From positions 186,001 through 250,000 of the forward strand of contig NZ_CAJHBL010000005.1 in the NCBI RefSeq assembly GCF_904846625.1: a stretch of DNA of 64,000 bases, read 5' to 3'. A program made the translations under genes and the position numbers. The notes below the pieces were generated by a model. The model ran no database searches. It was not told the origin of the DNA and was given only the letters and a program-made list of their open reading frames with translations. The first letter of the stretch is position 1, and the number at the start of each line of letters is the position of its first letter. Below, in pieces: positions 3,093 to 23,537 of this stretch. This DNA is from Psychrobacter sp. JCM 18900 (GTDB lineage Bacteria > Pseudomonadota > Gammaproteobacteria > Pseudomonadales > Moraxellaceae).

Positions 3093-3116
3093 AAAACATC
3101 GAAAAAGGATTTTATG

Positions 3117-7076: not shown

Positions 7077-7127
7077 AGTCGTTTCCTTATCAAGAAATGT
7101 CAAAAAAAGTTTAAAGTCATCATTCGC

Positions 7128-8063
7128 TTAAGTTCCTTCAGCAAACTTTAACCCACCAAAGCGTTTATAAAACTGTGGCCGTGCTGGCGGCATGGTTCCC
7201 TCAGCAGTGCGGGCAATGTTAAGAAAAAACTCTTCTGACGAACTAATAATCATTTGGTACACATTACTGGTCAAATTACGCGCGGTCAGTGCCAGCCAAT
7301 CCGATGGCAATAGTTCTAGAGGTAAATTCGGATCTTTTAATAAGATACGTCGGTACTGGTGAATCAGTAGAATACGAATTTGAAACGCTTGTAGCTGATT
7401 AAACTCACCATCTTCGATGAGGCTCAAAACATTACGAAAGTCGTTAATAAATTTATCATAGCGTTGATGCAGCTGCTCGATGGGCCAGTTAACCTCAATC
7501 ATACGCTTGAGTGTTGGGTATGACTCTTGCCACAATTGCAAGGCTTCGGCACGAAACACTACAACTTCTTCGGTCATATTGAGATTAAATAGTAAGTTTT
7601 GCAGCTGCAGTTCATCACAGCTCGGATAGGCCATGAGATTGGTGGTAATATTGGCAAACCCTAACCACTCCAATTCTTTTTTGAGGAGGGTTTTGTTTCC
7701 AAGATCAACCGAGCTTAATAACACCAAGTCCCATTTTTGATCCCACTCACCCTGATTTAAACCATAAATTTTTTCATGGGCGGCAGCAAAGCGTTCACGG
7801 CTGACTTCGGTAATGCGGTAGTAACTGGTACGCCCGATTTTTTCGGAGCTTAACCAATCATTTTGCACTAAGCGAAACACCGCAGTACGCACCGAGCGTT
7901 CGTTAAAACCGAACACATCCATGAGTTGAATTAGACTGGCTAAACTAATAACCCCTCCTCGTTGAAAGATACAATCACCAAAGATTGACATAATTAACGA
8001 GGTGCCACTTAATACGTCTTCACAGGTAAGCTCATCAATACATTGTTTTAATTTAGCATTCAT
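7128..8063 (-). CDS. paaX: PaaX, phenylacetyl-CoA-responsive repressor
   Basis: A 311-residue PaaX-family regulator. The N-terminal winged helix (TSLIMSIFGDCIFQRGGVISLASLIQLMDVFGFNERSVRTAVFRLVQNDWL) is followed by the alpha/beta central and C-terminal domains of the family. PaaX represses paa promoters until phenylacetyl-CoA binds. It is encoded between paaK and paaY, as in several proteobacteria. ATG 8063 (MNAKLKQC) is chosen; the longer frame to 8090 would start with GTG, and neither start has a strong ribosome binding site. Its likely operators are the TGATAC-N26/27-GTATCA repeats at 17646-17684, 17810-17847 and 20034-20071. Confidence 0.93.
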   Translation of the reverse strand: MNAKLKQCIDELTCEDVLSGTSLIMSIFGDCIFQRGGVISLASLIQLMDVFGFNERSVRTAVFRLVQNDWLSSEKIGRTSYYRITEVSRERFAAAHEKIYGLNQGEWDQKWDLVLLSSVDLGNKTLLKKELEWLGFANITTNLMAYPSCDELQLQNLLFNLNMTEEVVVFRAEALQLWQESYPTLKRMIEVNWPIEQLHQRYDKFINDFRNVLSLIEDGEFNQLQAFQIRILLIHQYRRILLKDPNLPLELLPSDWLALTARNLTSNVYQMIISSSEEFFLNIARTAEGTMPPARPQFYKRFGGLKFAEGT

Positions 8064-8130
8064 ATCATTTATTCGTCGTCTAAAAGGCACGCGATAATAT
8101 CCAAGGGACTATCGTGCGGGGTTAATTGCA

Positions 8131-9432
8131 TTAGGCAGGTACAGCGGCATTGCGTAGGTCAACAACACGTTGAGCTTTACCTTCAGAACGAGGTAACATA
8201 CCTTGTGGTGAGACTTCTACATGAACGCTGATACCCACCATGGTTTTTATTTTTTGTTTAAGTTTATTGGCCAACTGCATCACTTCGATACCACTGGCAT
8301 CACTACGTGACTCAACATGGATACATAGGGTGTCTAAGTGACCGTGCTTGAGGATATGGATCTGATAGTTTGGCAGTAATTTTGGTACTTGTAAAATCTG
8401 TTCTTCGATCTGCGAGGGAAATACATTAACGCCACGAATGATCAGCATATCATCACTACGGCCAACAATCTTTTCCATACGACGCATCGTTCGTACAGAG
8501 CCTGGTAATAAGCGGGTCAGATCTCGGGTACGGTAGCGAATGATAGGCATACCCTCTTTAGTAATGGTGGTAAACACTAATTCGCCCAGCTCGCCGTCTG
8601 GTAGTACTTCCCCGGTCTCAGGGTTGATGATTTCTGGGTAAAAATGGTCTTCCCAAATGGTTGCGCCGTCTTTAGATTCTAAGCATTCCATGGCGACACC
8701 TGGGCCCATGACTTCTGACAGGCCGTATATATCTAGCGCATCAATACCTAAACGCGTTTCGATTTCTTGGCGCATGGCATTCGTCCACGGTTCAGCCCCA
8801 AAAATACCGGTTTTGACAGAGCAGTCTTTGGCTGTACCAAATTTTTTCTCTAATGCTTCAATAATGTTCAAGCAATAAGAAGGGGTAACCATTAATGCGG
8901 TTGGTTCAAAGTCATGGATTAGCTGGGCTTGGCGATCAGTTTGGCCACCTGACATTGGGATAACCGTTGCACCTAATCGTTCAACACCATAGTGCGCTCC
9001 CAAACCACCAGTGAATAGGCCATAACCGTATGATACTTGGATGGTATCTTTGCTAGTAAGACCAGCCGCACGCAGTGAGCGTGCTACAACATCCGACCAA
9101 GTCACGATATCTTGCTTGGTATAACCGACAACGGTAGGTTGGCCAGTAGTACCTGATGATGCATGAACACGGACGATCTGTTCACGTGGGACGCTAAACA
9201 TACCGAACGGGTAATTGTCGCGCAAATCTGATTTGGTGGTGAATGGGAATTTGGCTAAATCTTCTAATGATTGACAGTCTTCGGGGTGGACACCGACTTG
9301 GTCAAATTTCTTCTTATAAACAGGGTTGTTTTCGTATGCGTGTTTGAGTGTTTCTTTCAAACGTTTCAACTGTACGCTACGCAATTCGTCTACTGATGCG
9401 GTTTCGATGTGTTCCATAACGTTATGATTCAT
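8131..9432 (-). CDS. paaK: Phenylacetate-CoA ligase
   Basis: A 433-residue AMP-forming ligase that converts phenylacetate, ATP and CoA to phenylacetyl-CoA, the first committed step. The P-loop-like SSGTTGQPTVVGYT and the YGLSEVMGPGVAMEC block are those of PaaK, and the C-terminal domain carries GRSDDMLIIRGVNVFPSQIEEQ. The start at 9432 (MNHNVMEHIE) has AAGGAG 6 nt upstream; the longer frame reaching 9555 overlaps paaJ and is not used. It lies between paaJ and paaX in the minus-strand operon. Confidence 0.95.
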   Translation of the reverse strand: MNHNVMEHIETASVDELRSVQLKRLKETLKHAYENNPVYKKKFDQVGVHPEDCQSLEDLAKFPFTTKSDLRDNYPFGMFSVPREQIVRVHASSGTTGQPTVVGYTKQDIVTWSDVVARSLRAAGLTSKDTIQVSYGYGLFTGGLGAHYGVERLGATVIPMSGGQTDRQAQLIHDFEPTALMVTPSYCLNIIEALEKKFGTAKDCSVKTGIFGAEPWTNAMRQEIETRLGIDALDIYGLSEVMGPGVAMECLESKDGATIWEDHFYPEIINPETGEVLPDGELGELVFTTITKEGMPIIRYRTRDLTRLLPGSVRTMRRMEKIVGRSDDMLIIRGVNVFPSQIEEQILQVPKLLPNYQIHILKHGHLDTLCIHVESRSDASGIEVMQLANKLKQKIKTMVGISVHVEVSPQGMLPRSEGKAQRVVDLRNAAVPA

Positions 9433-9497
9433 GTAAAACTCCTTTTCGTAGTCATCCTGACTACATTTCCAATTAAAAAGCTCTGTTAAAGCCGTGA

Positions 9498-10703
9498 TTA
9501 GACGTTTTCTATCACCATTGCCACACCTTGACCCACACCCACACACATGGTGCATAACGCATACTTACCGTTACAACGTTTTAATTCTTTCATTGCGGTG
9601 ATGGCCAAACGTGTACCACTCATTCCTAGAGGATGACCTAGCGCAATGGCTCCACCATTTGGATTGATACGTACGTCATCATCGGTAAGACCCAGTTCGC
9701 GAATTACGGCAAGGGATTGCGCGGCGAATGCTTCGTTGAGCTCGATAACATCCATCTGGCTTAATGTTAGTCCGGTTTGCTCAAGTACTTTTAATACTGC
9801 AGGCACAGGGCCAATACCCATATAGCGTGGCTCGACACCAGCACTCGCCATACCAACAATACGCGCTTGCGGCGTTAGATTGTGTGCTTGACCAAAGCGT
9901 TTGCTACCCATTAGCACACAAGCAGCACCGTCATTGATGCCTGATGCGTTACCCGCAGTCACTGAACCGCCCTCCTTGCGAAATGGGGTTTTGAGACTCG
10001 CAAGGGCTTCTAAACTAGCATCTGCACGTGGGTGTTCGTCTTGATCAACAATCACGCTGCCTTTTTTCGTTTTGACTTCAACTGGTAATATCTCTTCGTT
10101 AAAGAGACCCGCCTGTTGGGCAGCGGCCGTTTTCTGTTGGCTGCGTAGCGCGAATAGATCTTGGTCTTCGCGGCTGATTTGATATTTCTCAGCCACGTTT
10201 TCAGCAGTTTCTGGCATGCTATCAACACCATACGCGGCCTTCATTAATGGGTTAATGAAGCGCCAACCGATGGAGGTGTCAAAAATTTCTGGTGCGCGGT
10301 GAAAGGCACTGGTCGGTTTCGATTGTACATAGGGTGCGCGGCTCATGCTCTCGACACCACCAGCCAATACAAACTCGGCCTCACCCGTTTTTACCAAACG
10401 TGAGGCGATGCCAATCGAGTCCATACCAGAAGCACAGAGACGATTAACGGTGATAGCAGGCACGTTATCAGGCAAGCCTGCAAGTAAAGTTGCCATACGC
10501 GCTACATTACGGTTGTCTTCGCCGGCTTGGTTAGCACAGCCAATGATTACTTCATCAACTTTATCCCATGGCAAGTTTGGGTTTTGATCTTTTAGATGTT
10601 GAATAGGCAAAGCTGCCAAATCGTCCGTACGAACACTACTTAAGCCACCGGCATAGCGCCCGATTGGGGTGCGAATAGCGTCATAAATATATACTTGTTG
10701 CAT
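9498..10703 (-). CDS. paaJ: 3-oxoadipyl-CoA/3-oxo-5,6-dehydrosuberyl-CoA thiolase
   Basis: A 401-residue thiolase. The acyl-accepting cysteine is in [12 protein letters not shown] near residue 90; the second active-site histidine is in [14 protein letters not shown] and the second cysteine in [10 protein letters not shown] near the C-terminus. PaaJ cleaves 3-oxo-5,6-dehydrosuberyl-CoA and 3-oxoadipyl-CoA, giving acetyl-CoA and finally succinyl-CoA. AAGGG lies 8 nt before ATG 10703. It sits 30 bp after paaH, in the usual order. A PcaF role in the beta-ketoadipate pathway is chemically the same reaction. Confidence 0.94.
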
Positions 10704-10733
10704 TATAGTTTCCCTTACAATAAATCAATAAGT

Positions 10734-12260
10734 TTAAGCGCTTGCCGTGTGACAGGTGACGGCTTTTTTTACCAAATACAGGCTGGCACGATAACGTTCT
10801 TCACCATAAATACGTTGTAAGTTATTGAGCGTCTTAAGCACGGTGTCGTAGCCAAGCATTTGTGCCCATTCAAACGGACCTTTGGGGTAATTTACGCCGT
10901 ACTTCATGGCCGCATCGATGTCTGCTTCAGAGGCGATGTTGTGTAACACTGCTTCACAGCCTTCGTTAATGAGCATAGCAATGGTACGTAAAACATATAG
11001 ACCAGGATGGTCGGCAGACCAAATAACATGCACGTCAAGTCGGGCAAAGGCTTGCGTCACCAGCTCACGCTCATCATCATTACAGGCCATCGAGGCAGCC
11101 AATACAATAGCGCGGACTTGTGACCAGTCCGCATGCCAGTCCATCAGCATGACTTTGGCATCACCATGGTCAATCTCCACGGATTCACCCAGTGATAAAC
11201 GAATGCTGACATCACCAATTTCGATACTGTTCTGGTCTGCATCTTCAAGAGTCACTGTGAGGCTATCAGCAGCTTGTAAGCGTTCAACCAAACCTTTGGT
11301 ATAAAACCAATCACCACGTACAATAATGGTAGGCAGCGCGGCATCGGTTGCTTCAACGGCGGGTAACGCATAGGCAGGGATTGCTGGCGTTTGGCTATAG
11401 TCATAGAATCCTTGGCCAGATTTACGGCCAAAGCACCCGGCATCGACCAATTCTTTTTGTACCAACGATGGGCGGTAACGTGGCTCATAGAAGAAAGCCT
11501 GGTAGACGCTTTGCGTCACCGAGAAGTTGATATCTTGGCCAATTAAGTCTGTTAGCTCGCATGGCCCCATGGCAAAACGACCTGATTCACGCATGATAAA
11601 GTCAAGCTGCGCAGGTGTGGTCGCGTTTTCTTGCAGTGCGCGAAAGCCTTCAGCATAGTATGGACGCGCCACACGGTTAACGATAAAGCCTGGGGTAGAC
11701 TTGGCGATTACCGGTACCTTTTTCCAAGCACTCATCAAGTTAAACAGGCCATCTGTAATCTCAGTCGCTGTTTGTAAACCGCGAACAATCTCAACAAGTT
11801 TCATCACTGGGGCTGGATTAAAGAAGTGTAAGCCTACTACACGCTCAGGGTTTGGTACTGCTGATGCAATCGCTGTAATCGATATTGATGACGTGTTTGA
11901 TGCAAAAATCGTATCGTTAGCACAAATATCGGCCAATTGGACAAAGATCTGCTGTTTAATATCTTGACGCTCAACAATCGCCTCAACGATTAACTGCACC
12001 GCTGCCATCTCATTAATATCTGTAATAATAGATAAATTCTCTAGGGTGCTATCAAATAGCACTTGGGACATCTTGCCTTTTTGGACCCGTTTGGCAAGTT
12101 GACTTTCCAGACCCACTAAGGCGGCTTGACTTTTGGCAACATCTACATCAAAGAGATAGGTCGTGTGACCGTGCATGGCGGCCAACTGCGCAATGCCAAT
12201 CCCCATCGTGCCTGCCCCAATAACGGCAATGGTTGCGTTTGATAAATCCCTCGTTTCCAT
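10734..12260 (-). CDS. paaH: 3-hydroxyadipyl-CoA dehydrogenase
   Basis: A 508-residue 3-hydroxyacyl-CoA dehydrogenase, longer than the roughly 285-residue short form because of a second C-terminal 3HCDH domain, as is usual for PaaH. The NAD-binding motif is [17 protein letters not shown] near residue 13. The catalytic region has [16 protein letters not shown] and [17 protein letters not shown]. It oxidises 3-hydroxyadipyl-CoA to 3-oxoadipyl-CoA. The start ATG 12260 lies only 2 bp after the paaG stop codon and has AAGGA upstream, so translation is probably coupled. Confidence 0.94.
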
Positions 12261-12262
12261 GA

Positions 12263-13054
12263 TTAACGTCCTTGATAAATTGGGGTGCGTTTTTGCATAA
12301 AAGCTTGGACACCTTCTTTATAGTCAGCTGAGCGACCAGCAAGTCGCTGCAAGTCCCGCTCTAAGATTAGCTGATCTTCTAGGCTGTTGTCCGCGGATAC
12401 ATTGATGGCTTTTTTAATGAGGCTGAGGCCATAGGTCGGTTGGCTGGCCAAGTGTTCGGCCAATTTACTGGCTTCGTTACGTAGCGCGTCATCTTCGATC
12501 ACTTGCCAAATCATGCCCCATGCCATCGCTTGTTCAGCAGATAGCTTATCGCCTAACATGGCTAAGCCCATCGCGCGGGCGTGGCCGACAACGCGTGGTA
12601 GGAACCATGTACCGCCTGAATCAGGTACAAGCCCAAGACGACAAAACGCTTGGATAAATGAGGCTGATTTGGCCGCCAATACCAAGTCACACGCCAAAGC
12701 GATGTTCGCGCCGGCACCGGCAGCCACGCCATTCACCGCACAGATCACAGGCTTTGGCATATCAGTAATCAGCTTAATCAGTGGATTGTAGTAAGTCTCG
12801 ATGGATAGGCCCAAATCTGGCGCATCAGCATTCGGGGCAACTGCGCGATCGCCTAAATCTTGACCTGCACAAAAACCGCGACCTTCAGCAGAGAGCACTA
12901 CAGCGCGAATAGTACTGTCTTTTGACCATGCTTTTAGCACGCTGACCACTTCTTTGTGCATGGTTTCATTAAAGCTATTAAGCTGTTTTGGGCGGTTTAA
13001 AGTAAGATAGCCGACGGCATTTTTTTCTTCGACGAGAATCGTTTGATAGTCCAT
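12263..13054 (-). CDS. paaG: 2-(1,2-epoxy-1,2-dihydrophenyl)acetyl-CoA isomerase
   Basis: A 263-residue crotonase-fold enzyme. The oxyanion-hole regions are [16 protein letters not shown] and [28 protein letters not shown] is characteristic of PaaG. It isomerises the ring epoxide of phenylacetyl-CoA to the oxepin and also moves double bonds later in the route. Its start codon overlaps the paaF stop codon by one base (TAATG), indicating coupled translation. Confidence 0.93.
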
Positions 13055-13824
13055 TACATACCTCTAAAAATTGGTTGACGTTTTTCTAAAAATGCACGGA
13101 TGCCTTCTTGGCGATCTTGGGTGGCGGCAAGCCAAACAAATAGCTGACGTTCTTGCTTAAGTCCTTGGCTCAAGTTCACTTCGTGGATGGTTTTGAGTGA
13201 CTGTTTGATGGCGCGAATGGCCAAAGGGGCTTGCTTGGCGATTTTGGCCGCCAGATCAAGGGTGTATTGTACGGTCAAATCAGTTGGGCAGACTTGGGTG
13301 GTAATTCCATGTTGTTGTGCATTTAATGCACTAATCCTCTCACCTGTCATCGCCCAACGCATGGCAAGCTGCTGACCCACTAGGCGAGCGAGGCGCTGGG
13401 TGCCCCCTGCCCCTGGTAGCATGCCCAAGCCAACTTCAGGCAGCGAAAATTGGGCGTTTTCGCCCGTGACCACGATGTCACCATGCAGTACCAGCTCAAA
13501 ACCGGCACCGAGTGCATAGCCATTAACTGCGATTAATAGCGGCTTGCTAAATTCATCGATTCGCTTCCATAAGGTTGGGCGAATATCAGTTTGTAAGCTA
13601 ACGGTATCGAGTTGAATAAGTTCGTTAAGATCGGCACCCGCAGCGAAGCATTGAGTATTGCCAGTAATGACGACCGCTTTTATATCGGTATCAGCGTCAT
13701 AGGCTTGAAGCCGTTCGACAATTTCTTGCAAAGTGGCGTTATTTAGGGCGTTGCGTTTTTCTGGGCGATTTAGCTCAATCAGTGCAACGCCTTCTTTTGG
13801 ACTGGAGGTTTTAATGTAATTCAT
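13054..13824 (-). CDS. paaF: 2,3-dehydroadipyl-CoA hydratase
   Basis: A 256-residue crotonase-family hydratase with FAAGADLNEL and NGYALGAGFELVLHGDIVV as the two oxyanion-hole segments, and a catalytic glutamate in LPEVGLGMLPGAGGTQRL. It hydrates 2,3-dehydroadipyl-CoA to 3-hydroxyadipyl-CoA. It overlaps paaG by one base. A 96-bp gap separates it from paaE; I see no hairpin there, so it probably still belongs to the same transcript. Confidence 0.93.
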   Translation of the reverse strand: MNYIKTSSPKEGVALIELNRPEKRNALNNATLQEIVERLQAYDADTDIKAVVITGNTQCFAAGADLNELIQLDTVSLQTDIRPTLWKRIDEFSKPLLIAVNGYALGAGFELVLHGDIVVTGENAQFSLPEVGLGMLPGAGGTQRLARLVGQQLAMRWAMTGERISALNAQQHGITTQVCPTDLTVQYTLDLAAKIAKQAPLAIRAIKQSLKTIHEVNLSQGLKQERQLFVWLAATQDRQEGIRAFLEKRQPIFRGM

Positions 13825-13920
13825 CCCTGAATCCTAATAAAAACAATGAAATAGGGGGTTTTGCCAAACCCTACTTTGGATATACAAACGATAAATATCT
13901 AAGGTGTTAACGTCTCTCGA

Positions 13921-14979
13921 TTACGCGTCAAAGCTCAATCGTATGTTGGCTGATACAGGTAATGCTTGGCAGCTGAGTACGTAGCCCTTATCTAACTCTT
14001 CTTGCTCAAGGCTATAGTTAACGGCCATTTCGACCTCACCTTCAATCACTCTGCATTTACAAGTGGCACACACACCGCCTTTACAGGCATAGGGTAAGTC
14101 AGCACCCGCACGTAATGCCGCATCTAAGATGCTGTCATCTTGTTTTGACACTTCAACGATCAGTTCACGTCCGTCCAAAATGATATTGACGCGTTCTTCG
14201 CTGCGTTTTTCGATTTGCTGGGCAGTTGGTTTGTTGACAGTCCCCGTATGGAAACGCTCGGTATGGATGTTGTTGCGATCGATACCAAGGTTTGGCAATA
14301 CGGTCTCAATGGCCTCCATCATTTCTTCTGGGCCACAGGCAAAGCAGTGGTCAACATCAGCACTGATAAGTCGGGCGTCAAACAACTGTTGTAGTTTGTT
14401 CGCATCGATACGGCCATTAAAGATCTCGCTGTCACTCATCTCACGTGAGAAAATATTAACCAGTTGTAGGCGCGTTTTAAAACGGTCTTTAAGGTCCATG
14501 ATTTGCTCAGAGAACATGGTTTGTTTCCATGACCGATTGCCGTATATCAAGGTAAAATTGGCATCTGGTTGGGTACTTAACACCGTTTTGACGATAGATA
14601 AAATTGGGGTAATACCACTACCAGCAGCAAAGCTTAGATAGTTTTGACCACCAGCTTTAGCAGCTTTTTGAAAGAAAACTCCTTGGGGTGGCATAACTTC
14701 TAGAGTATGGCCTACTTTTAGATGTTCGTTTGCCCAAGTAGAAAATTGTCCTTGATCAATCTTCTTGATGGCAATGCTCATGTCTTCTTGCACATCACTA
14801 CAGATTGAGTAGCAACGACGGATTTCGCCATTATCTGTCATGTGACGGATGGTCAAATGTTGACCTGGTTGGTATTTAAAGGCTGCCGCATCTTCCGAAG
14901 CAAGGTCAAATGCAATGCAAATCGCTTGCTCAGTTTGTGGCTGGATAGACTTGATAGTTAGTGGCAAAAATTGACTCAT
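13921..14979 (-). CDS. paaE: Phenylacetyl-CoA epoxidase reductase
   Basis: A 352-residue oxidoreductase with an FAD domain (RCYSICS near residue 55), an NAD(P)-binding domain (FAAGSGITPILSIVKTVL) and a C-terminal plant-type [2Fe-2S] ferredoxin domain (CKGGVCATCKCRVIEG and a fourth cysteine in VLSCQA). It passes electrons from NADPH to the PaaA di-iron centre. Ferredoxin at the C-terminus is the usual domain order for PaaE. It is encoded 72 bp after paaD. Confidence 0.95.
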   Translation of the reverse strand: MSQFLPLTIKSIQPQTEQAICIAFDLASEDAAAFKYQPGQHLTIRHMTDNGEIRRCYSICSDVQEDMSIAIKKIDQGQFSTWANEHLKVGHTLEVMPPQGVFFQKAAKAGGQNYLSFAAGSGITPILSIVKTVLSTQPDANFTLIYGNRSWKQTMFSEQIMDLKDRFKTRLQLVNIFSREMSDSEIFNGRIDANKLQQLFDARLISADVDHCFACGPEEMMEAIETVLPNLGIDRNNIHTERFHTGTVNKPTAQQIEKRSEERVNIILDGRELIVEVSKQDDSILDAALRAGADLPYACKGGVCATCKCRVIEGEVEMAVNYSLEQEELDKGYVLSCQALPVSANIRLSFDA

Positions 14980-15051
14980 GCGAAAATCCTTCTTTCATTT
15001 TGCTTAGTTAGTGAGCTGACTGTCACGTGCGATCTCGCGACTACCCCTATC

Positions 15052-15552
15052 TTAGATGCATTTAAAATAATCAAACGGTTCAAGGCAATCGAGGCACTTA
15101 TACAACGCCTTGCACGCAGTTGAACCAAATTCGCTAATCAGTTGGGTTTTTTGACTGCGACAATGAGGACAGGTCACACCATCAGTTAGCGCCACGTGGC
15201 TACCACAGCTGTGTGAATCGCCTTGCGGCGGTGCAATGCCATATTCTTGCAGCTTTTGCTTACCTGCCTCACTCATCCAGTCGGTCGTCCAAGCTTCAGA
15301 CAAGTCAATCACCACCTTTACAGGGGTCAGCCCACGTTCGGTAAACGTATTGGTAATCTCATCTTTTAGCATATCGGTTGCTGGACAGCCGCTATAGGTT
15401 GGTGTTAAACGCACCACAATTTCGTTATCTGCGTTGATATCAACGCCCCGAATCATGCCTAAGTCAAGCACGGTCAAAACAGGTACTTCTGGATCATGAA
15501 CCTCATTAAGAGCTTTCCAACAGGCATCTGTGACTTGTGGAATTAACCGCAT
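15052..15552 (-). CDS. paaD: PaaD, epoxidase maturation or accessory protein
   Basis: A 166-residue protein with an N-terminal MIP18/SufT-like domain (ALNEVHDPEVPVLTVLDLGMI and YSGCPATDML) and a C-terminal cysteine-rich zinc-ribbon-like tail (CPHC near residue 133, then CLDC and a final C165). PaaD is required for active phenylacetyl-CoA epoxidase and probably helps assemble a metal centre. It lies between paaC and paaE in the standard order. Confidence 0.94.
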   Translation of the reverse strand: MRLIPQVTDACWKALNEVHDPEVPVLTVLDLGMIRGVDINADNEIVVRLTPTYSGCPATDMLKDEITNTFTERGLTPVKVVIDLSEAWTTDWMSEAGKQKLQEYGIAPPQGDSHSCGSHVALTDGVTCPHCRSQKTQLISEFGSTACKALYKCLDCLEPFDYFKCI

Positions 15553-15576
15553 ACTATGACTCCTTGTCGTGTATGT

Positions 15577-16332
15577 TTACCAATTCATATTTGGGTAAGT
15601 ACGTTGCATGTACTGTAATTCTGCCAAAATATAACCCAAGTGTTCGGTATGAGCGCCTTGCTTCGCACCACGGCGGTATGCGCCAATCTCAGGCAAAGTT
15701 AAGTTCAAATGTGCCAATCCACTTTCAATCTGCGCTAACCATTCAGCTTTTAGAAGATCGAGTTTCGGTAAGACGCCATTATCAACTAAGGCTTGTTCGT
15801 CAGTGGTGAGTTCAAACAATTCAGCAGTAAAGCGCCATAGGTTGTTCAGCGCTTGTTGCGTTTTGTGGTGTGCCTCATCGGTGCCTAGGCTTAAGCGTTC
15901 CATCCATGCATGTGAGAAACGTAAGTGATATTTTGCTTCTTTTAATGACTTGACACCAAAGGCTGCAATATCTACGTGGCTGCTTTGGCTTAACGCGTCA
16001 AGTAATAATACATGGTAATGATCCATCAACCATTGACGTACCATCGTTTGGGCAAAATCTACATTGGGCTGTTCACATAGCAATAGGTTGCGATATTCAC
16101 GTTCGGTACGTAAAAAAGCCAAGTTGTCTTCATCACGGCCCAAGTCTTCGATTTGTCCAGCTAGACTCAGCACCGTACGGGATTGACCCAATAAGTCTAA
16201 ACCGATATTGGACAAAGCAATATCAAGCTCAAGCTCAGGGGCATGTCCACACCATTCAGACAATCGGTGCGATAGAATCAATTGGCTATCACCAACATGA
16301 AGTAAGAATTGTGTTAACGCTTGGTTATTCAT
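15577..16332 (-). CDS. paaC: Phenylacetyl-CoA epoxidase structural subunit PaaC
   Basis: A 251-residue, mostly helical ferritin-like protein that lacks the full di-iron ligand set and supports PaaA. Recognisable blocks are HRLSEWCGHAPELELDIALSNIGLDLLGQSR and KEAKYHLRFSHAWMERLSLGTDEAH. PaaA and PaaC form the heterodimer core of the epoxidase. Spacing to paaB is 15 bp and to paaD 24 bp. Confidence 0.94.
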   Translation of the reverse strand: MNNQALTQFLLHVGDSQLILSHRLSEWCGHAPELELDIALSNIGLDLLGQSRTVLSLAGQIEDLGRDEDNLAFLRTEREYRNLLLCEQPNVDFAQTMVRQWLMDHYHVLLLDALSQSSHVDIAAFGVKSLKEAKYHLRFSHAWMERLSLGTDEAHHKTQQALNNLWRFTAELFELTTDEQALVDNGVLPKLDLLKAEWLAQIESGLAHLNLTLPEIGAYRRGAKQGAHTEHLGYILAELQYMQRTYPNMNW

Positions 16333-16347
16333 CGATTATCTCCTATC

Positions 16348-16638
16348 TTAAATATGCTCAATACCGTCTGGAATTTGATAGAAGGTAGGATGACGATATA
16401 CCTTGTCGAGTGATGGCTCAAAAAACTCTGGCTTTTCCTCAGGTTGCGATGAGGTAATCAGCTCTGACTTCACTATCCAAATGCTCACACCTTCATTACG
16501 ACGAGTGTAGACATCACGTGCGTTTTGCAGAGCAATTTCATCATCTGGCGCGCGCAAGCTACCAACATGACGATGACTTAAACCTTGTTTGCTACGGATA
16601 AAAACTTCGTAAAGTGACCAGTTGTTTTTGCTTTCCAT
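16348..16638 (-). CDS. paaB: Phenylacetyl-CoA epoxidase subunit PaaB
   Basis: A 96-residue protein, normal for PaaB, with the family blocks WSLYEVFIRSKQGLSHRHVGSLRA and NEGVSIWIVKSELI. It is a small bridging subunit in the PaaABCE complex. It lies 23 bp after paaA. Confidence 0.95.
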   Translation of the reverse strand: MESKNNWSLYEVFIRSKQGLSHRHVGSLRAPDDEIALQNARDVYTRRNEGVSIWIVKSELITSSQPEEKPEFFEPSLDKVYRHPTFYQIPDGIEHI

Positions 16639-16661
16639 GGCTAATTTTCCTTTAAAAAATA

Positions 16662-17600
16662 TTAAGCGGCTTTTTGAGTATTGGCGTGTTGTTTCTGTGC
16701 ATAGACAGCAGCAGAATCACGAACCCATTTACCCTCTTCCCAAGCTTTACGTCGGGCTTCGATACGCTCATGATTACACGGGCCTTTACCAGCAATCACG
16801 GCAAAGAGTTCATCCCAGTTGATTTCACCGAATTCATAGTTGCCCGTTTCTTCGTTAAACGTCAAATCTTTGTCAGGAATAGTTAAACCAAGTTGTAACA
16901 CCTGTGAGACGGTATTATTCACGAATTTTTGGCGCAACTCATCGTTACTAAATAGTTTGATTTTCCAATCCATGCTAAGAGCACTGTTGGGTGAATTATC
17001 ATCATTTGGACCGAACATCATCAGCACTGGCCACCAGAAGCGATCGACTGCATCTTGTGCCATGGCTTTTTGTTCAGGTGTACCATTCGCCAATACCATC
17101 ATGGCTTCGAAGCCTTGGCGTTGGTGGAAACTTTCTTCTTTACAGATACGAACCATGGCGCGAGCATATGGACCATATGACGTCCGGCAAAGCGCCACTT
17201 GGTTAACGATAGCGGCGCCGTCAACCAACCAGCCAATAGCAGCGATGTCAGCCCACGTTAGAGTTGGGTAGTTAAATATTGATGAGTATTTCATGCGGCC
17301 GGCAACGAGTTTGTCCATCATATCGTCACGATCTGCGCCTAGGGTTTCAGCTGCACTGTATAGATACAATCCATGACCTGCCTCATCTTGAACTTTGGCC
17401 AACAATACGGCTTTACGCTTGAGTGTTGGTGCACGCGTAATCCAATTACCCTCAGGTAACATACCAACCACTTCTGAATGCGCATGCTGACCAATCTGGC
17501 GTATGAGCGTTTTACGATAAGCATCTGGCATCCAATCTTTTGGCTCAATTGAAATGTCCTTTTCAATTTTGCTGTCAAATAATTCTACTTGCGTGTTCAT
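16662..17600 (-). CDS. paaA: Phenylacetyl-CoA epoxidase catalytic subunit PaaA
   Basis: A 312-residue ferritin-like di-iron monooxygenase that inserts oxygen into the ring of phenylacetyl-CoA. Di-iron ligand regions are visible as [17 protein letters not shown] and [14 protein letters not shown] 17600 ([11 protein letters not shown]) has GAGG 6 nt upstream and is preferred over the frame extension to 17621. It is the first gene of the minus-strand paa operon and is preceded by a promoter (TTGATT-N17-TAGATT) overlapped by an inverted-repeat operator. Confidence 0.95.
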
Positions 17601-17636
17601 TTGATACCTCGTCCTTAACAAGTGTTTGTGTTAACT

Positions 17637-17665
17637 AATCTAAAGCGATACTATTTTAAAATCAA
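17637..17665 (-). promoter_or_regulatory. Candidate sigma-70 promoter of the paa operon
   Basis: On the minus strand, TTGATT (17660-17665) and TAGATT (17637-17642) are separated by exactly 17 bp. The left half-site (17646-17651) of the inverted repeat at 17646-17684 falls within the spacer, which suits a repressor. Confidence 0.5.
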
Positions 17666-17684
17666 CATCTATTTTCATGTATCG
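17646..17684. promoter_or_regulatory. Probable PaaX operator at the paaA promoter
   Basis: CGATAC (17646-17651) and GTATCG (17679-17684) form an inverted repeat with a 27-bp spacer. A long spacer of this size between short inverted half-sites recalls the PaaX site described in E. coli (TGATTC-N27-GAATCA, from memory). Two related sites lie at 17810-17847 and 20034-20071. Confidence 0.6.
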
Positions 17685-17809
17685 TTTTATTTTTTAGCTG
17701 TATTATTAATAAGATGTTGTTTTATATAGATATTTATAATAATAAATTTTTAAAAAAATATTAATAATTATAAACATGCTTGACTTTTCAGCGATTTAAA
17801 TACAGATTA

Positions 17810-17847
17810 TGACACGTTAAGTTTTTATTTTTATCTATAATGTATCG
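17810..17847. promoter_or_regulatory. Probable PaaX operator at the paaZ promoter
   Basis: TGACAC (17810-17815) and GTATCG (17842-17847) are inverted with a 26-bp spacer. A TATAAT at 17836-17841 directly abuts the right half-site, so binding would cover the -35 region and start point of paaZ. The left half-site differs by one base from TGATAC. Confidence 0.5.
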
Positions 17848-17863
17848 TAAAAGGAGTTGTTAT

Positions 17864-19915
17864 ATGTCAGACATTAAAACGTTAAGCTCACTCGTCCTCA
17901 GTAAAGCCTACGTTGCACAAAGCGATTTTCGCACTGTGCATCATGCGGTTACCGGCGAACCAATTTATCAAGTCAGTAGCGCTGGTATCGATACCAAAAA
18001 AGTAGTTGAATACGCTAAAGAATATGGCTCAGCGCTTGCAAACTGGACATTCCACCAACGCGCTAATGCACTGAAATTGGTCGCACAATATCTACTTCAA
18101 CGTAAAGAAGATTTTTATGCATTGGCCACGGCAACTGGTGCGACACGCAAAGATGCCTGGGTCGATGTTGAAGGAGGTATCGGTACCTTATTTGCATATT
18201 CGAGCCTCGTGCGCCGTGAGCTCAGCGATGAGACTGCCTTAGTTGAAGATGCTTGGATTCCTCTATCAAAAAATGGTACGTTTGGCGCTCAGCATATCTT
18301 GAGCCCGAAAACGGGCGTGGCCATTCATATTGATGCGTTTAACTTCCCTATCTGGGGCATGTTAGAAAAAGTCGCACCGACTCTATTAGCTGGTGTCCCT
18401 TGTATCGTCAAGCCTGCAACCGAAGGCGCTGAGCTGACTCATGCCGTGGTAGCCGCGATTCATGAAAGCGGTCTATTGCCAGAGGGTTCATTGCAGCTGA
18501 TATGTGGACAAACCTATGACTTGTTTGACCATCTAAATCCCCAAGACACCATTACCTTCACAGGTTCTGCAGTAACGGGTCAAAAACTACGAGCCCATCC
18601 ACACTTGAACGCCCATTCAATTCCTTTCACCATGGAAGCCGATTCGGTGAACAGTGCCATTTTAAGCCCAGCTGCCAACGATGAAACTATCGATTTGTTT
18701 GTACGCGAAGTCTTCCGCGAAATTACTATCAAAGCTGGACAAAAATGTACTGCGATTCGTCGCGCGTTTGTTCCTGCCGCCTTGCTAGAAACAGCGCAAA
18801 CTCGCCTAGTTGAAAAACTACAAAAAGTCGTGGTCGGTGACCCAAACCGTGAAAACGTGACCATGGGTACATTAGCTAGCGTGAAGCAAAAACTTGACGT
18901 CGCAGAAAAAGTCGAGCAACTGAGCCAAGAAGCCGAAGTGGTATTCGGTAGTCACTTACGTGAAGATTTCACTTTACAAGTAGACGACGCAGAAAAATCA
19001 GCCTGTTACCCACCAACCGTGTTGGTCTGTAATAACCCAAGCCAAGCCGAAAATATCCATCGCATCGAAGCATTTGGTCCAGTTGTCACCCTAATGCCAT
19101 ACGGCGACCTAGATGAACTTGGTGCACTTGTAGCACGTGGTGAAGGTAGCTTAGTTGCCTCTATCGTGCGCAATGCAGACGAAAACATCGAAGCCTTATT
19201 GAAAAAAATTGCCCCTTGGCATGGCCGTGTACATATCCTAGATAGCGAAAGTGCTCGTGAAAGTACGGGTCATGGTTCACCTCTCCCATTACTTGTACAC
19301 GGTGGCCCAGGCCGTGCCGGTGGTGGTGAAGAACTTGGTGGTCTGCGAGCCGTTAAACACTACATGCAACGTACTGCCATCCAAGGCTCGCCCAATGCCT
19401 TGACCCAAGTCGGTCACAGCTGGACAGCTGGTGCACAAGTGTTCGAAGATCGTGTCCATCCGTTCAAAAAATCATTCGATGAACTTCGTATTGGAGAGCG
19501 TCTATTGACCGCACGTCGTACAGTGACTGAGGCAGATATCGTTAACTTTGGCTGCTTAAGTGGTGACCACTTTTACGCTCATATGGACAAAATTGCGGCG
19601 GCAGATTCGTTCTTTGGTGAGCGTGTCGCCCATGGTTACTTTATCGTATCAGCGGCCGCTGGCTTGTTTGTTGACGCATCACCTGGTCCAGTCATCGCTA
19701 ACTACGGTATGGAAAACCTACGCTTCGTTGAGCCTGTCAAGATTGGTGACACCATTCAAGTTGAATTAACTTGTAAACAAAAGACGCCAAAGGCACAACG
19801 CGACCCAGCGGAAAAAGCTCATGGCGTTGTAGTATGGGACATCAAAGTTAAGAACCAACGCAACGACTTGGTCGCAACTTACGACATCTTGACCTTAGTT
19901 GAGCGTAAGGCTTGA
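17864..19915 (+). CDS. paaZ: PaaZ, bifunctional oxepin-CoA hydrolase and aldehyde dehydrogenase
   Basis: A 683-residue two-domain enzyme. The N-terminal aldehyde dehydrogenase domain spans about residues 1-520, with the nucleophile in GQKCTAIRRAF. The C-terminal MaoC-like (R)-hydratase domain spans about residues 535-680, with GCLSGDHFYAHMDK and ERVAHGYFIVSAAAG. It hydrolytically opens oxepin-CoA and oxidises the resulting semialdehyde to 3-oxo-5,6-dehydrosuberyl-CoA. ATG 17864 follows AAGGAG by 7 nt, so it is chosen over the upstream ATG 17840. It is divergent from paaA and followed by a strong terminator. Confidence 0.95.
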   Translation: MSDIKTLSSLVLSKAYVAQSDFRTVHHAVTGEPIYQVSSAGIDTKKVVEYAKEYGSALANWTFHQRANALKLVAQYLLQRKEDFYALATATGATRKDAWVDVEGGIGTLFAYSSLVRRELSDETALVEDAWIPLSKNGTFGAQHILSPKTGVAIHIDAFNFPIWGMLEKVAPTLLAGVPCIVKPATEGAELTHAVVAAIHESGLLPEGSLQLICGQTYDLFDHLNPQDTITFTGSAVTGQKLRAHPHLNAHSIPFTMEADSVNSAILSPAANDETIDLFVREVFREITIKAGQKCTAIRRAFVPAALLETAQTRLVEKLQKVVVGDPNRENVTMGTLASVKQKLDVAEKVEQLSQEAEVVFGSHLREDFTLQVDDAEKSACYPPTVLVCNNPSQAENIHRIEAFGPVVTLMPYGDLDELGALVARGEGSLVASIVRNADENIEALLKKIAPWHGRVHILDSESARESTGHGSPLPLLVHGGPGRAGGGEELGGLRAVKHYMQRTAIQGSPNALTQVGHSWTAGAQVFEDRVHPFKKSFDELRIGERLLTARRTVTEADIVNFGCLSGDHFYAHMDKIAAADSFFGERVAHGYFIVSAAAGLFVDASPGPVIANYGMENLRFVEPVKIGDTIQVELTCKQKTPKAQRDPAEKAHGVVVWDIKVKNQRNDLVATYDILTLVERKA

Positions 19916-19930
19916 TACCTATATGGATCT

Positions 19931-19963
19931 GCAAAAAAGGAGTCGTCATGACTCCTTTTTTGC
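19931..19963 (+). terminator. Rho-independent terminator of paaZ
   Basis: GCAAAAAAGGAGTC (19931-19944) pairs perfectly with GACTCCTTTTTTGC (19950-19963), with a 5-nt loop. It starts 16 bp after the stop codon, so the transporter at 20155 needs its own promoter. Confidence 0.9.
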
Positions 19964-20033
19964 AACTAAAGCAAACTTTATTAATAAAACATATTGACGT
20001 CAGGTTGTAGAATAGCTAAATTATAAAACCAAG

Positions 20034-20071
20034 TGATACATAATTTTATTTTTAATAAATAAAAAGTATCA
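20034..20071. promoter_or_regulatory. Probable PaaX operator upstream of the MHS transporter
   Basis: TGATAC (20034-20039) and GTATCA (20066-20071) form a perfect inverted repeat with a 26-bp spacer, matching the sites in the paaA/paaZ intergenic region. It lies 84 bp before the start codon of the transporter. Confidence 0.55.
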
Positions 20072-20154
20072 TTAATTTATATTAGATAATGTTTGGCTAG
20101 GATAGCTAAGCTGTCGAGTCGTTTCTAGGACAATATATAGACAAGGAGTCACTA

Positions 20155-21477
20155 ATGACAACCACCACCGCAATGGCTGAAAACGCCTCGCTTGCTATAC
20201 ATCAGGATAAAAAAGTACTCACTGCCACCCTAGTTGGTACTGCGATTGAATGGTATGATTTTTTCATCTATGCACAAGCCGCAAGTCTCATATTTGCTCC
20301 CCTGTTTTTCGCTGAAGTCAGCAAATCAAACCCTATGCTCGCCCAAATCATCGCTTTTGCGACCGTTGGTATCTCATTTCTATTTCGCCCATTAGGCGCA
20401 ATCGTATGTGGTCGCTTGGGTGACAAGTACGGTCGCAAGATGGTATTGGTAACGACCCTGATTTTGATGGGTGCGTCAACGACCTTAATAGGCTTCTTGC
20501 CGACTTATGCGCAGATTGGTGTATTAGCACCCTTGGCTTTGGTATTTTTACGTATTATCCAAGGCTTTTCTGCAGGTGGTGAATGGGGCGGTGCGGCATT
20601 GTTATCTGTCGAGCATGCACCCCTTGATAAACGCTCACTATTTGGGGCTTACCCACAGATTGGCGTGCCCATCGGTATGATTTTAGCGACTGGTGTCCTG
20701 CTGCTCTTAAATTTGATTTTGGGTAAAGAAGCCTACCTCGAGTGGGGTTGGCGCATTCCATTTATATTATCGATTGCATTAATCATCGTGGGCACCTTTA
20801 TCCGTCGTTCGGTTAAAGAGTCACCAGTGTTTGAAGCCATGCATCGTCGTAAAGCAGAAGCCTCTGCACCATTGTCATTGTTATTCAAAGATCACACACC
20901 AACAGTTCTTAAAGCGGCTTTAATCTTTATGGGAGTGAATGCAGGTGGTTATATTCTCATCGCTTTTATGGTGGGTTACGGTCAAAAAGCCTTAGGACTT
21001 AGCCCTACTTTAACCATGCTAATCGTAGTGGCGGCTGCTTTCTCTTGGTTAGTATCAACCCTTTGGGGCGGCATGTTAGGTGATAAGATTGGTCGTCTAA
21101 AGATTTTTAAATTAGGCTATATCTTATTGTCGTTATGGTCGATTCCAATGTGGTTTTTGATTGATACCAAATCTCCCATTTTATTTATGCTAGCACTAGT
21201 GGTTTGGGCTATTCCCCTAGGTTTTACTTATGGTCCATTATCAGCCCTATTTGCTGAAATGTTCCCTGCAAAAGTACGTTTTTCAGGGGTGTCCATCAGC
21301 TATGCATTAGGTTCCATTATTGGTGGTGCGTTCGCTCCGATGATTGCGCAATGGATTATGGCAACTTATCAACAGTCATGGATGATTGGGTTGTATATTA
21401 CTATCGTCTCATTAATTTCACTATTCACACTTTACACGATTAAAAAAGACCCACAAGGCGTTGATCTATCTCTCTAA
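20155..21477 (+). CDS. MFS transporter, metabolite:H+ symporter type; probable phenylacetate importer
   Basis: A 440-residue major facilitator with about 12 membrane segments. GTAIEWYDFFIYAQAASLIF near the N-terminus, RPLGAIVCGRLGDKYGRK and GGEWGGAALL are hallmarks of the metabolite:H+ symporter group (KgtP/ShiA-like). It moves a carboxylate with protons across the inner membrane. The gene follows paaZ after a terminator, and its promoter carries the same inverted repeat as the paa promoters, so phenylacetate or a related aromatic acid is the likely substrate. The proposed substrate is inference. AAGGAG lies 7 nt before ATG 20155. Confidence 0.88.
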   Translation: MTTTTAMAENASLAIHQDKKVLTATLVGTAIEWYDFFIYAQAASLIFAPLFFAEVSKSNPMLAQIIAFATVGISFLFRPLGAIVCGRLGDKYGRKMVLVTTLILMGASTTLIGFLPTYAQIGVLAPLALVFLRIIQGFSAGGEWGGAALLSVEHAPLDKRSLFGAYPQIGVPIGMILATGVLLLLNLILGKEAYLEWGWRIPFILSIALIIVGTFIRRSVKESPVFEAMHRRKAEASAPLSLLFKDHTPTVLKAALIFMGVNAGGYILIAFMVGYGQKALGLSPTLTMLIVVAAAFSWLVSTLWGGMLGDKIGRLKIFKLGYILLSLWSIPMWFLIDTKSPILFMLALVVWAIPLGFTYGPLSALFAEMFPAKVRFSGVSISYALGSIIGGAFAPMIAQWIMATYQQSWMIGLYITIVSLISLFTLYTIKKDPQGVDLSL

Positions 21478-21495
21478 ATAAATTTAGAGAGATAG
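21466..21495. repeat. Perfect inverted repeat across the transporter stop codon
   Basis: CTATCTCTCTAAAT (21466-21479) and its exact complement (21482-21495) are separated by 2 bp and include the TAA stop. No T-run follows, so it is more likely an mRNA-protecting hairpin or a Rho-dependent 3' end than an intrinsic terminator. Confidence 0.5.
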
Positions 21496-22220
21496 TGGAA
21501 AATGTCACCATGTAAATGGTATAAAAATTTTATCAGCATACGAAAAAAAATCAGCCCCACCTTACCTTTAACGGTTAAAAAGCTGACTAACTATTGAAAT
21601 ACCGAAGTGTCGTGATTGAAAAATACCAAACGCAAGCCCTCAATCAGCAGGTTTAAGCCTAAAACGAACAAACTGACTTGAGGGCGAGTGTTTGACTTTA
21701 GCTTGCGTTTTAAAGGTTTGTTTTTAGTAGCTTAAAGATACCTATTAGTGTCTTTATAATCTCAAATATATTATCTTGCTTTGTCTATCTCCCTCTTTCA
21801 TTTCCTCAACATACTTTCTGATACAAAACCTTAATTCAAGCTATAACCTATTAGAAGGCACATACACCAATGCAGTGGCATCCAAAATGTCAGGTCACAT
21901 TCCCATATGCCATGGATTTATTTTACTGTGATGAGTCGAAAAATCCATGCATGCTATTCTTTGTATAGCATAGAAGGCTGAGGCATGAAATTCACTTTCC
22001 CTAAGCCTTGTTATCAATACCGCGGTTTGGTCAATAAGAATTTTGGCAGCATTAATTATGATAAACAACTACTTTCAAGATAACATTGAAAGTGTTTCTT
22101 GAGTTAAGCCTCTACCTCTACTATAACTAGCTATATATAATCGTTTTAAAGCAGTCGATTAACTAACGATATCTTTTGACTTGATAAAGTTTAACATTGG
22201 TGGTTAAAAATAATTCTATT
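21496..22220. other. Gene-poor stretch with one structured inverted repeat
   Basis: No convincing gene is present. The main feature is the long imperfect hairpin at 21628-21710. A 32-codon frame at 21984-22082 has a poorly spaced GAGG and no recognisable product. The DNA before 22221 looks like the upstream region of a decayed ABM gene. Confidence 0.5.
21628..21710. repeat. Long imperfect hairpin of unknown role
   Basis: The outer arms AAACGCAAGC (21628-21637) and GCTTGCGTTT (21701-21710) match exactly. The inner arms GCCCTCAATCAG (21636-21647) and CTGACTTGAGGGC (21673-21685) match with one bulged base. It has no T-tract. It could be a structured RNA, a degenerate mini-element or an insertion-sequence end. 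Confidence 0.5.
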
Positions 22221-22416
22221 ATGGCTAGATTAACCATCGTTGCTAATATCATGGCCAAACCAAATCGAAACGGTCAAAACAGAATTGATAAAACTTATTG
22301 GTGTTACTCGCACTAAAAAAGTGTGTATCAATTACGACTTACATCAAGATAATAAAAATCCTGCTCATTTTATATTCTACGAAAATTGGGCGTCATACAC
22401 TCAATATTATGCTTGA
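22221..22416 (+). pseudogene. Antibiotic biosynthesis monooxygenase (ABM) domain remnant, frameshifted and truncated
   Basis: Translation from ATG 22221 gives MARLTIVANIMAKPN, the usual N-terminus of a YgiN/ABM-fold monooxygenase. The reading then has to shift frame, near 22262, to continue as QIETVKTELIKLIGVTRTKK and CINYDLHQDNKNPAHFIFYE, both conserved ABM blocks, and it ends at a TGA (22414-22416) shortly after the NWASY segment. About 65 codons remain of a usual 95-100, so the last beta-strand is missing as well. The total of 196 nt is not a multiple of three, consistent with a one-base insertion. The gene is inactive unless the frame is an assembly error. Confidence 0.7.
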
Positions 22417-22451
22417 GTACCTATACACATCAATAAATACAGGAGATTCAA

Positions 22452-23537
22452 ATGAAATATGCAAAGTCACTACTGGCTATAAGTGCTGCACTGATATTAG
22501 GCACAGCTCATGCCAACAATATTGAAGTCGTTGCGCAAATAGATGATACTCGCCCTGGTAATATCACGGTAACTCAACAAGGACGAACATTTTTGTCCAT
22601 GCAGCCCCTAGACAACCCTGAATACCGTGTGGTTGAATTGATGAGTGATGGCTCAACTAAACCTTTTCCAAACGTAGACTGGGCTGACGGTCCAGATAAA
22701 GGAGATGTTGGATTTGCTTCAGTTATTGGTATCGAAAGCACTCCAGATGGAGTGGTTTGGATTCTAGATATGGGTAGCAAAAATTCGCCTGCTCAAATCG
22801 TAGCTTGGGATACCTTAAATAACAGACTCTTCAAACGCATTGAGATCGATAGTGATGCTACTGTAGACAATTCGTTCTTACAAGATTTTGTTATCGATAC
22901 TAAGCGCAATAAAATATACATAGCTGATACTAGTCTCGGCAATTTGTCAGGAGCACCTGCGCCTGCCTTTGTAGTTGTTGACTTAGGCACAGGTAACTCT
23001 CGCCGTGTTCTTCAAGCAAATAAAGCACTTTTAGCACCTGAGCATGACCTTATTATTGATGGGTCATTAATGGCAACTAAGCGTGAAAATGGTAATTCTG
23101 ATGCAATTTACCTAAGTTTAAACCCAATCACTATGGATGCCCAAAATGAATGGGTATATTTCGGCACAGTGAATGGTAGTGTAATTTACCGCTTGCCTGC
23201 CTCATCACTTGCCAATGATAATTTGACAGATAGCCAACTGAGTAAAACCATAGAGTTTTATGGTGAAAAACGTCCTAGTGATGGGATGATTATGGCGGAT
23301 AATGGAGATATCTACGTTGGAGATATTGAAAAAAATGCCATCAGTATCGTGACTAAAGATGGCTTTAAGACCTTTGCTCAAGATGACAATCTACTATCAT
23401 GGGCTGATGGGTTTTCAATTCAAAATGGCTACTTATACATCACTCAAAACTCACTACATCTTAACCCTGCGTTAAATCAAGGTGAAGAGGGCTCTGTGAA
23501 GCCATACCATATCTTACGCATAAAGTTGAATCAATAA
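22452..23537 (+). CDS. Secreted beta-propeller protein, major royal jelly/yellow-like
   Basis: A 361-residue exported protein. The signal peptide ends near AHA-NN (residues 20-23). The mature part has repeated blade-like strands such as SVIGIESTPDGVVWILDMGS, FVIDTKRNKIYIADTS and SDGMIMADNGDIYVGDIEKN, a pattern seen in the MRJP/yellow and SMP-30-like six-bladed propellers. These bind small ligands or act as lactonases; no catalytic assignment is possible here. AGGAG lies 7 nt before ATG 22452. A G8 run follows the stop codon at about 23540. It is flanked by a decayed ABM gene and convergent with maeA. Confidence 0.75.
   Translation: MKYAKSLLAISAALILGTAHANNIEVVAQIDDTRPGNITVTQQGRTFLSMQPLDNPEYRVVELMSDGSTKPFPNVDWADGPDKGDVGFASVIGIESTPDGVVWILDMGSKNSPAQIVAWDTLNNRLFKRIEIDSDATVDNSFLQDFVIDTKRNKIYIADTSLGNLSGAPAPAFVVVDLGTGNSRRVLQANKALLAPEHDLIIDGSLMATKRENGNSDAIYLSLNPITMDAQNEWVYFGTVNGSVIYRLPASSLANDNLTDSQLSKTIEFYGEKRPSDGMIMADNGDIYVGDIEKNAISIVTKDGFKTFAQDDNLLSWADGFSIQNGYLYITQNSLHLNPALNQGEEGSVKPYHILRIKLNQ

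Follow-up and report, generated by a model that had tools for sequence, protein, structure and literature searches.

The window analysed here is a stretch of 64,000 nucleotides from Psychrobacter sp. JCM 18900 (contig NZ_CAJHBL010000005.1, positions 186,001 to 250,000), whose genome comprises 3.28 Mb in 18 contigs. It contains a cluster of paa genes and three long-spacer inverted repeats, putative operators of the repressor PaaX. The first gene of the paa operon, paaA (16662-17600; TIGR02156, E = 3.4e-154), lies on the minus strand and is followed by further paa genes, the series closing with paaK, paaX and paaY. Divergently from paaA, on the plus strand, lie paaZ (17864-19915; TIGR02278, E = 1.5e-286), whose product was 100% identical to PaaZ of an uncultured Psychrobacter (L002), and then a transporter gene of the MFS superfamily (20155-21477; PF00083 and PF07690). 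The transporter matched TIGR00883 (metabolite:H+ symporter, MHS) across the full profile with 390.1 bits (E = 1.2e-116); because this is under the curated cut-off of 443.45 and the MFS assignment comes from Pfam, it is called MHS-like only. The repressor gene paaX (7128-8063, minus strand) was the sole PF07848 match in a profile search of the whole genome. It starts about 70 bp past paaK on the same strand, so it is probably part of the operon that PaaX represses, and the circuit is probably autoregulated.

The three repeats were CGATAC-N27-GTATCG at paaA (17646-17684), TGACAC-N26-GTATCG at paaZ (17810-17847) and TGATAC-N26-GTATCA at the transporter gene (20034-20071). A preliminary description had reported them at exactly these positions and with these spacers, sharing the half-site TGATAC...GTATCA. 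The common part proved to be the core GA(T/C)AC...GTATC, whereas the full motif occurs at the transporter site only; both outer bases deviate in the paaA repeat, and the paaZ repeat has two mismatches instead of the single one reported. The exact motif TGATAC-N26/27-GTATCA occurred once in the window against an expectation of 0.01. With spacer N26 and up to two mismatches there were 6 matches where 2.87 were expected, a number equalled or exceeded in 5 of 100 shuffles. As this count is barely above chance, the raw pattern cannot support the two weaker sites.

The window was also scanned with a half-site matrix of 14 columns, made from 36 different half-sites of Acinetobacter promoters alone (the paaA sites of 22 loci and the paaZ sites of 9 of these), the window being excluded. 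The three repeats ranked first to third, with 21.2 bits at paaA, 18.2 bits at paaZ and 17.0 bits at the transporter, and the fourth hit scored 2.8 bits. The highest score among 60 first-order Markov sequences was 19.1 bits; four of them had a hit above 17.0, and their third-best hits went no higher than 10.8. With wrong spacers (33 to 36) the top scores in the window were at most 15.8, 15.3 and 12.4. The repeats might be chance products of AT-rich intergenic DNA, as the common two-mismatch matches and the four random sequences with a hit above 17.0 would allow, and a single matrix hit could indeed arise by chance. Three such hits at the relevant promoters could not, given the random third-best scores; three together never arose, and the sites are conserved across loci. 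The probability of a chance origin is accordingly negligible.

Among 105 Psychrobacter genomes paaX was found in four, and the same four carried the full-length transporter (98-100% identity). All three sites were kept in each of these four genomes. The spacer of the paaA site was N27 throughout, and that of the transporter site N26, N26, N25 and N26. The paaZ site had N26 in three genomes and read TGATAT-N27-GTATCG in G023, where it was missed by the script pattern and was read by eye from the sequence.

For comparison with other bacteria, the best 80 matches listed in a search for paaZ loci were examined, of which 60 had divergent paaA and paaZ genes and 20 had other arrangements. All 60 divergent loci contained a long-spacer repeat upstream of paaA, with a spacer of 27 or 28. 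The half-sites were GATTC/GATTC in all 36 Enterobacterales-type loci (35 titled Enterobacterales and one record titled Chryseobacterium) and GATAC/GATAC in 21 of 22 Acinetobacter loci and in Psychrobacter L002; mixed repeats were found in one Acinetobacter (GATAC/GATTC) and in Zobellella (GACAC/GATTC). The paaZ site of Acinetobacter read GAAAC or GAATC-N26/27-GTATC in 22/22 loci and lay directly past the -10 region. Among the 20 non-divergent loci the stretch included paaA in 14; an exact GATAC repeat was present in six, GACAC/GATAC in three and neither in five. Further sampled Gammaproteobacteria had GATAC or GACAC where the repeat was found. Conservation of the half-sites in related paa promoters had been set beforehand as the point at which the proposal could fail, and they were conserved (60/60 at paaA, 22/22 at paaZ and 4/4 at the transporter). 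GATAC-like repeats with a spacer of 29 and scores of 13 to 21 bits were also noticed at about 2915-2990 of L011, L012, L013 and L025, inside the paa operon region; this spacer is outside the usual range, and they are possibly coincidence.

Considering the matrix ranking, the recurrence in the paaX-bearing Psychrobacter genomes and the repeat in 60/60 divergent loci, the repeats of the window are very probably operators of the cluster-encoded winged-helix repressor PaaX, each at its own promoter. Their geometry, with 6-bp half-sites and a spacer of about 27 bp at the paaA and paaZ promoters, is that of the E. coli PaaX operator, TGATTC(N27)GAATCA in the accessible part of PMC9493321, which the preliminary description had given correctly in both spacer length and half-site. 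The half-site TGATTC itself was not present in the repeats of the window, which have GATAC or GACAC. The preliminary description was thus right in giving GATAC instead of GATTC, but this is the usual form outside Enterobacterales and no peculiarity of this genome. Since GATAC and GACAC prevail in the other Gammaproteobacteria sampled, GATAC looks like the widespread half-site and the E. coli GATTC like a lineage-specific one; relative to E. coli, the operator of the window is classed as a variant on the same grounds.

The PaaX protein of the window contains the domains PF07848, PF20803 and PF08223, all above their cut-offs. The PaaX equivalog profile TIGR02277 was matched over its whole length with 261 bits (E = 1.4e-77), just under the cut-off of 264.55, which was narrowly missed also in 2 of the 30 genomes searched, both Acinetobacter (263.0 and 261.3). 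For this reason the protein is assigned to the PaaX family by Pfam and fold, without the NCBI equivalog label. An AlphaFold2 model from an 11-sequence alignment had a mean predicted local distance difference test (pLDDT) score of 90.2 and matched E. coli W PaaX (8a39) with a template modelling (TM) score of 0.92 and an E value of 1e-27. Another regulator, e.g. TetR-type PaaR, which controls paa genes elsewhere according to the accessible text of PMC9493321, might bind the repeats in place of PaaX. The consensus of Thermus PaaR given there, CNAACGNNCGTTNG, is a different, compact motif, PaaX is encoded within the cluster, and the type of site co-varies with the PaaX sequence, all of which makes binding by another regulator very unlikely, no search for PaaR having been made in this genome.

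This co-variation was followed at the recognition helix of PaaX (residues 55-67), near the start of which the protein of the window has Ser57 and E. coli PaaX has Phe56 (numbered in the 8a39 chain by counting from the alignment). PaaX sequences were taken from 30 of the 60 divergent loci. Members of the class and order samples were counted only if paaA and a PaaX match stood on one stretch or on two stretches paired by genome; stretches without paaA were excluded, several of them with GATAC-type sites at other paa genes. After 3 of 70 rows had been dropped as duplicate PaaX, 67 non-redundant proteins with a paired paaA promoter remained. By the rule that both half-sites must be GATAC, GATTC or GACAC, a site was present in 51 of the 67 pairs, and the other 16 were retained as misses. 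The 18 proteins with Phe were paired with GATTC/GATTC in 17 cases and with GACAC/GATTC in one, while of the 33 with Ser, Ala or Leu, 32 were paired with GATAC or GACAC only and one with a site containing a single GATTC half-site. In the PaaX tree (51 rows, midpoint root, the tested column included, several long branches) Acinetobacter, Psychrobacter and Zobellella adjoin Enterobacterales, and sites containing GATTC account for three changes (Enterobacterales; Zobellella, mixed; Acinetobacter stercoris, one half-site). Joint changes of residue and site number about two at most, so that the correlation is no more than suggestive.

A strict Phe/Ser specificity switch was weakened by two observations. 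The left half-site position at paaZ held TGATAC in 15 of the 36 Enterobacterales-type loci, with a TGATTC in the same stretch in 6 of them, although every PaaX sampled from this group has Phe (17/17), and A. stercoris combines a Ser PaaX with one GATTC half-site. A wing residue (Arg in Enterobacterales, Thr79 here) was also considered as the determinant and was rejected, since GATAC-type Leu proteins share the Arg.

The proposal that the transporter belongs to the paa regulon gained support from independent loci of Acinetobacter and of MHS genes. A different MFS transporter lies behind paaZ in 17 of the 22 Acinetobacter loci. A scan of two of these proteins showed them to be TIGR00893-like, with weak similarity to the aromatic-acid permeases HpaX and MhpT. 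In all 17 loci GA(T/C)A(C/T)-N26/27-GTATC was found 12-37 bp before the first in-frame ATG, while the same repeat was absent from the 1.2 kb behind paaZ in the five loci without this gene (0/5). In L014 a match to a lax pattern (GACAT..GAATC) and a more distant hit of 12.2 bits were not counted. A second, lax hit (GATTC..GTATC) beginning in the terminator palindrome was present in 9 of the 17.

The relatives of the MHS-like transporter comprised all 19 listed at E < 1e-100 in a sample of the family, Psychrobacter excluded (299 genomes overall), which is a lower bound as at most five candidates were scored per genome. An exact GATAC-N26-GTATC was found upstream of 4 of the 5 relatives that have paa genes no more than about 3 kb away, beginning 167-225 bp before the matched start, and of 1 of the 14 unlinked ones, for which about 9 kb on each side was covered, with a shorter reach on one side in L239 and L249 (Fisher's exact test, 0.006 by hand arithmetic, shared ancestry not being allowed for). 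The five paa-linked genes group together on one branch (100/99), and the sole unlinked gene that has a site belongs to it too. The Psychrobacter transporter falls on a different MHS branch in a tree with long branches and 9 of 21 inner branches open. It is therefore not regarded as orthologous to the paa-linked MHS genes found elsewhere in the family, and the tree is read as showing two recruitments.

The unlinked gene with a site is in L236 (G229), where the exact repeat lies at 8720-8755 without a paa gene within about 9 kb; this transporter is possibly a distant PaaX target in another Moraxellaceae genome. In Psychrobacter outside the four paaX-bearing genomes, about 40% identical relatives of the transporter occur in four genomes and a fragment in a fifth. 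The fragment, in G084 (L129/L253), which has no paaX match, is a 5'-truncated copy (residues 152-440, 98% identical) with no PaaX-type site, perhaps a remnant of a lost paa locus.

Several of these results weigh against PaaX control at the three repeats. The paaZ site of the window is imperfect. The four Psychrobacter genomes are close relatives, and conservation among them is by itself weak evidence. No GATAC-type site was obtained in 5 of the 14 non-divergent paaZ loci with paaA, and 16 of the 67 PaaX/paaA pairs had no site by the rule, some of them carrying distant PaaX-family proteins. Finally, the paa-linked MHS gene next to paaZ in L247 (G167; 9976-10162) had no exact PaaX-type site. A GATAC-N27-GTATC repeat was noted between paaZ and paaA of the same locus.

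The promoters at the three repeats can be placed as follows. For paaA a -35 hexamer TTGATT (17665-17660) and a -10 hexamer TAGATT (17642-17637) with N17 between them are inferred on the minus strand (17637-17665); the counterpart in L003 is TTGATT-N17-TAATTT. The paaA repeat had been placed in the spacer between -10 and -35; this is true of one half-site, but the repeat encloses the -35 hexamer, and its other half-site is located upstream. For paaZ, TATAAT is present beside the site as first described (17836-17841), but it is missing in G023 and in three of four Acinetobacter loci (L003, L010 and L021); L014 has a TATAAT at a different distance. TTGAC(T/A) at 17780 and a -10 region abutting the left half-site are kept in G023 and in all four Acinetobacter loci compared. 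The likelier paaZ promoter is therefore TTGACT at 17780-17785 with a -10 region at about 17803-17809 (17780-17809, plus strand). The transporter promoter TTGACG-N17-TAAATT (19994-20022, plus strand) was listed by the promoter scan with 9 of 12 matches; both hexamers are invariant in a four-species Psychrobacter alignment and alike in Acinetobacter, and the operator begins 11 bp past the -10 hexamer.

The scan of 16500-22600 found 11 promoters against 15.2 expected from shuffles, and listed neither the paaA nor the paaZ promoter as read here; a consensus match alone is no evidence. A terminator scan of the same region found 6 against 4.9 expected. The intrinsic terminator between paaZ and the transporter (19930-19964, plus strand) was not among these; it was spotted by eye and then folded, giving a 15-bp stem with -22.9 kcal/mol (z = -8.8), and the stem-loop was present in 4/4 Psychrobacter genomes. 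As this strong terminator separates the transporter from paaZ, a promoter and control of its own are probably required for the transporter.

The spacer of the transporter operator is a near-palindrome, so that the transcript could form a long AU hairpin, unlike those of the other two sites. That the transporter repeat acts as an RNA hairpin, i.e. an attenuator or stability element, and not as a DNA operator was tested by folding. Positions 20030-20075 folded at -9.2 kcal/mol with z = -4.5, as an RNA element would; the other two sites gave z = -1.3 and -1.4, and 21 and 20 of 200 shuffles, respectively, folded equally well. Moreover, the paaA repeat spans its promoter, and the half-sites are what the loci have in common. 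A hairpin function is not favoured and must be considered highly improbable.

With the repeats taken as PaaX operators, the circuit may be pictured as follows. Without phenylacetyl-CoA, PaaX would sit on two GATAC-type half-sites at each of the three promoters. The centres of the half-sites are about 32-34 bp apart, i.e. about three helical turns, and both would thus be presented on the same side of the double helix. By analogy with E. coli, the operator just past the -10 region would occlude initiation at paaZ and at the transporter; at paaA one half-site would lie in the core promoter between -35 and -10 and the other upstream. Phenylacetate taken up and activated by PaaK to phenylacetyl-CoA would, as in E. 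coli, free PaaX, whereupon paaZ and the transporter would be transcribed along with the catabolic operon. In the available text of PMC9493321, E. coli PaaX is freed by phenylacetyl-CoA, is a competitor of RNA polymerase at Px and Pz, and acts in another mode at Pa. Regulation and gene neighbourhood point to phenylacetate or one of its precursors as the putative substrate of the transporter.

The segment behind paaZ was compared with its counterpart in 6 of the 17 Acinetobacter loci by global alignment. Scores were 103-130; with 200 shuffles for each locus, the top shuffled scores were 95-103, and each alignment beat its own shuffles; in L004 it did so narrowly (103 against 100), with the operators out of register, and the common terminator palindrome contributes much of the score. 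Terminator, promoter and operator thus probably form one inherited regulatory segment, as far as sequence comparison goes, with different transporters behind it. In the PaaX tree Psychrobacter is nested within Acinetobacter, which suggests that its paa cluster was acquired from there; with paaX in so few Psychrobacter genomes, the cluster (6477-21477 of the window) looks horizontally acquired. An acquired cluster (PaaX nested in Acinetobacter, paaX in 4/105 genomes) and a segment resembling its Acinetobacter counterpart would also be expected if the transporter site were a relic of the arrival of the cluster, no longer relevant for the present transporter. In the alignment of the four genomes, though, the half-sites of the transporter are invariant while leader and flanks have diverged, they are intact in G049, where the spacer is one base shorter, and Acinetobacter MHS genes of the other branch have exact sites of their own. 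A mere relic is therefore very unlikely.

A wider interpretation falls slightly short of being probable and is put forward tentatively. The segment behind paaZ would be a Moraxellaceae regulatory socket, into which unrelated transporters were plugged, or given a PaaX site of their own, at least three times, the control of uptake being conserved and the transporter not; in addition, one position of the recognition helix (Phe in Enterobacterales and Zobellella; Leu, Ser or Ala elsewhere) would set the preference for GATTC or GATAC. The three recruitments would be that of the TIGR00893-like MFS transporter by Acinetobacter, that of one MHS branch by other Moraxellaceae and that of another MHS branch by Psychrobacter.

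The system is of a known kind, but its operator is a variant and its regulon has gained a transporter. The E. coli regulon (Pa, Pz and Px), in the parts of PMC9493321 available, likewise has a GntR-type PaaX, an inverted repeat with a 27-bp spacer and divergent paaZ and paaA promoters. In contrast to E. coli, the window has GATAC at paaA and not GATTC, Ser57 in place of Phe56, paaX behind paaK and not behind its own Px, and the added transporter. A similar PaaX sequence is reported for Pseudomonas sp. Y2 in the same available text. The Pseudomonas system with the phenylacetate permease PaaL is also a PaaX-controlled catabolon; in P. putida CA-3 uptake by paaL is sigma-54 dependent according to the accessible part of PMC3224230, whereas the transporter of the window has a sigma-70-like promoter and a PaaX-type site. 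The paa locus of Acinetobacter is alike in its GATAC-type operators at paaA and paaZ and, in 17/22 loci, behind paaZ, but the position behind paaZ is occupied there by another MFS family (TIGR00893-like).

In A. baumannii a paaX deletion has been studied, and the Acinetobacter paa operon is tied to stress responses and virulence (PMC9239106, accessible text). The word 'motif' did not occur in the accessible portions of PMC9239106 and PMC10878099, both of them A. baumannii papers dealing with PaaX, nor Psychrobacter in that of a 2026 pathway survey (PMC13186573). In the open-access literature no paper was found that pairs TGATAC with PaaX, or PaaX with Psychrobacter; RegPrecise or subscription papers may already record a GATAC motif.

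Of the neighbouring genes, paaY (6477-7103, minus strand) matched TIGR02287 under the cut-off (E = 4e-79). Downstream of the transporter there is a gene with PF03022 (Major royal jelly protein-like) at 22452-23537. A run of genes at 1657-5477 encodes a pcaB-like lyase, a TRAP DctP protein and an NDMA-dependent-type alcohol dehydrogenase; except for DctP (TRAP_S1), these family matches were under the cut-off.

The more interesting part of the finding is the conserved control over exchangeable transporters, which suggests that regulatory sites may outlast the transporter they served. The comparison provides a usable PaaX operator code outside Enterobacterales, Acinetobacter included, names candidate transporters for phenylacetate uptake, and offers a single residue with which it may be probed how PaaX reads its half-site.

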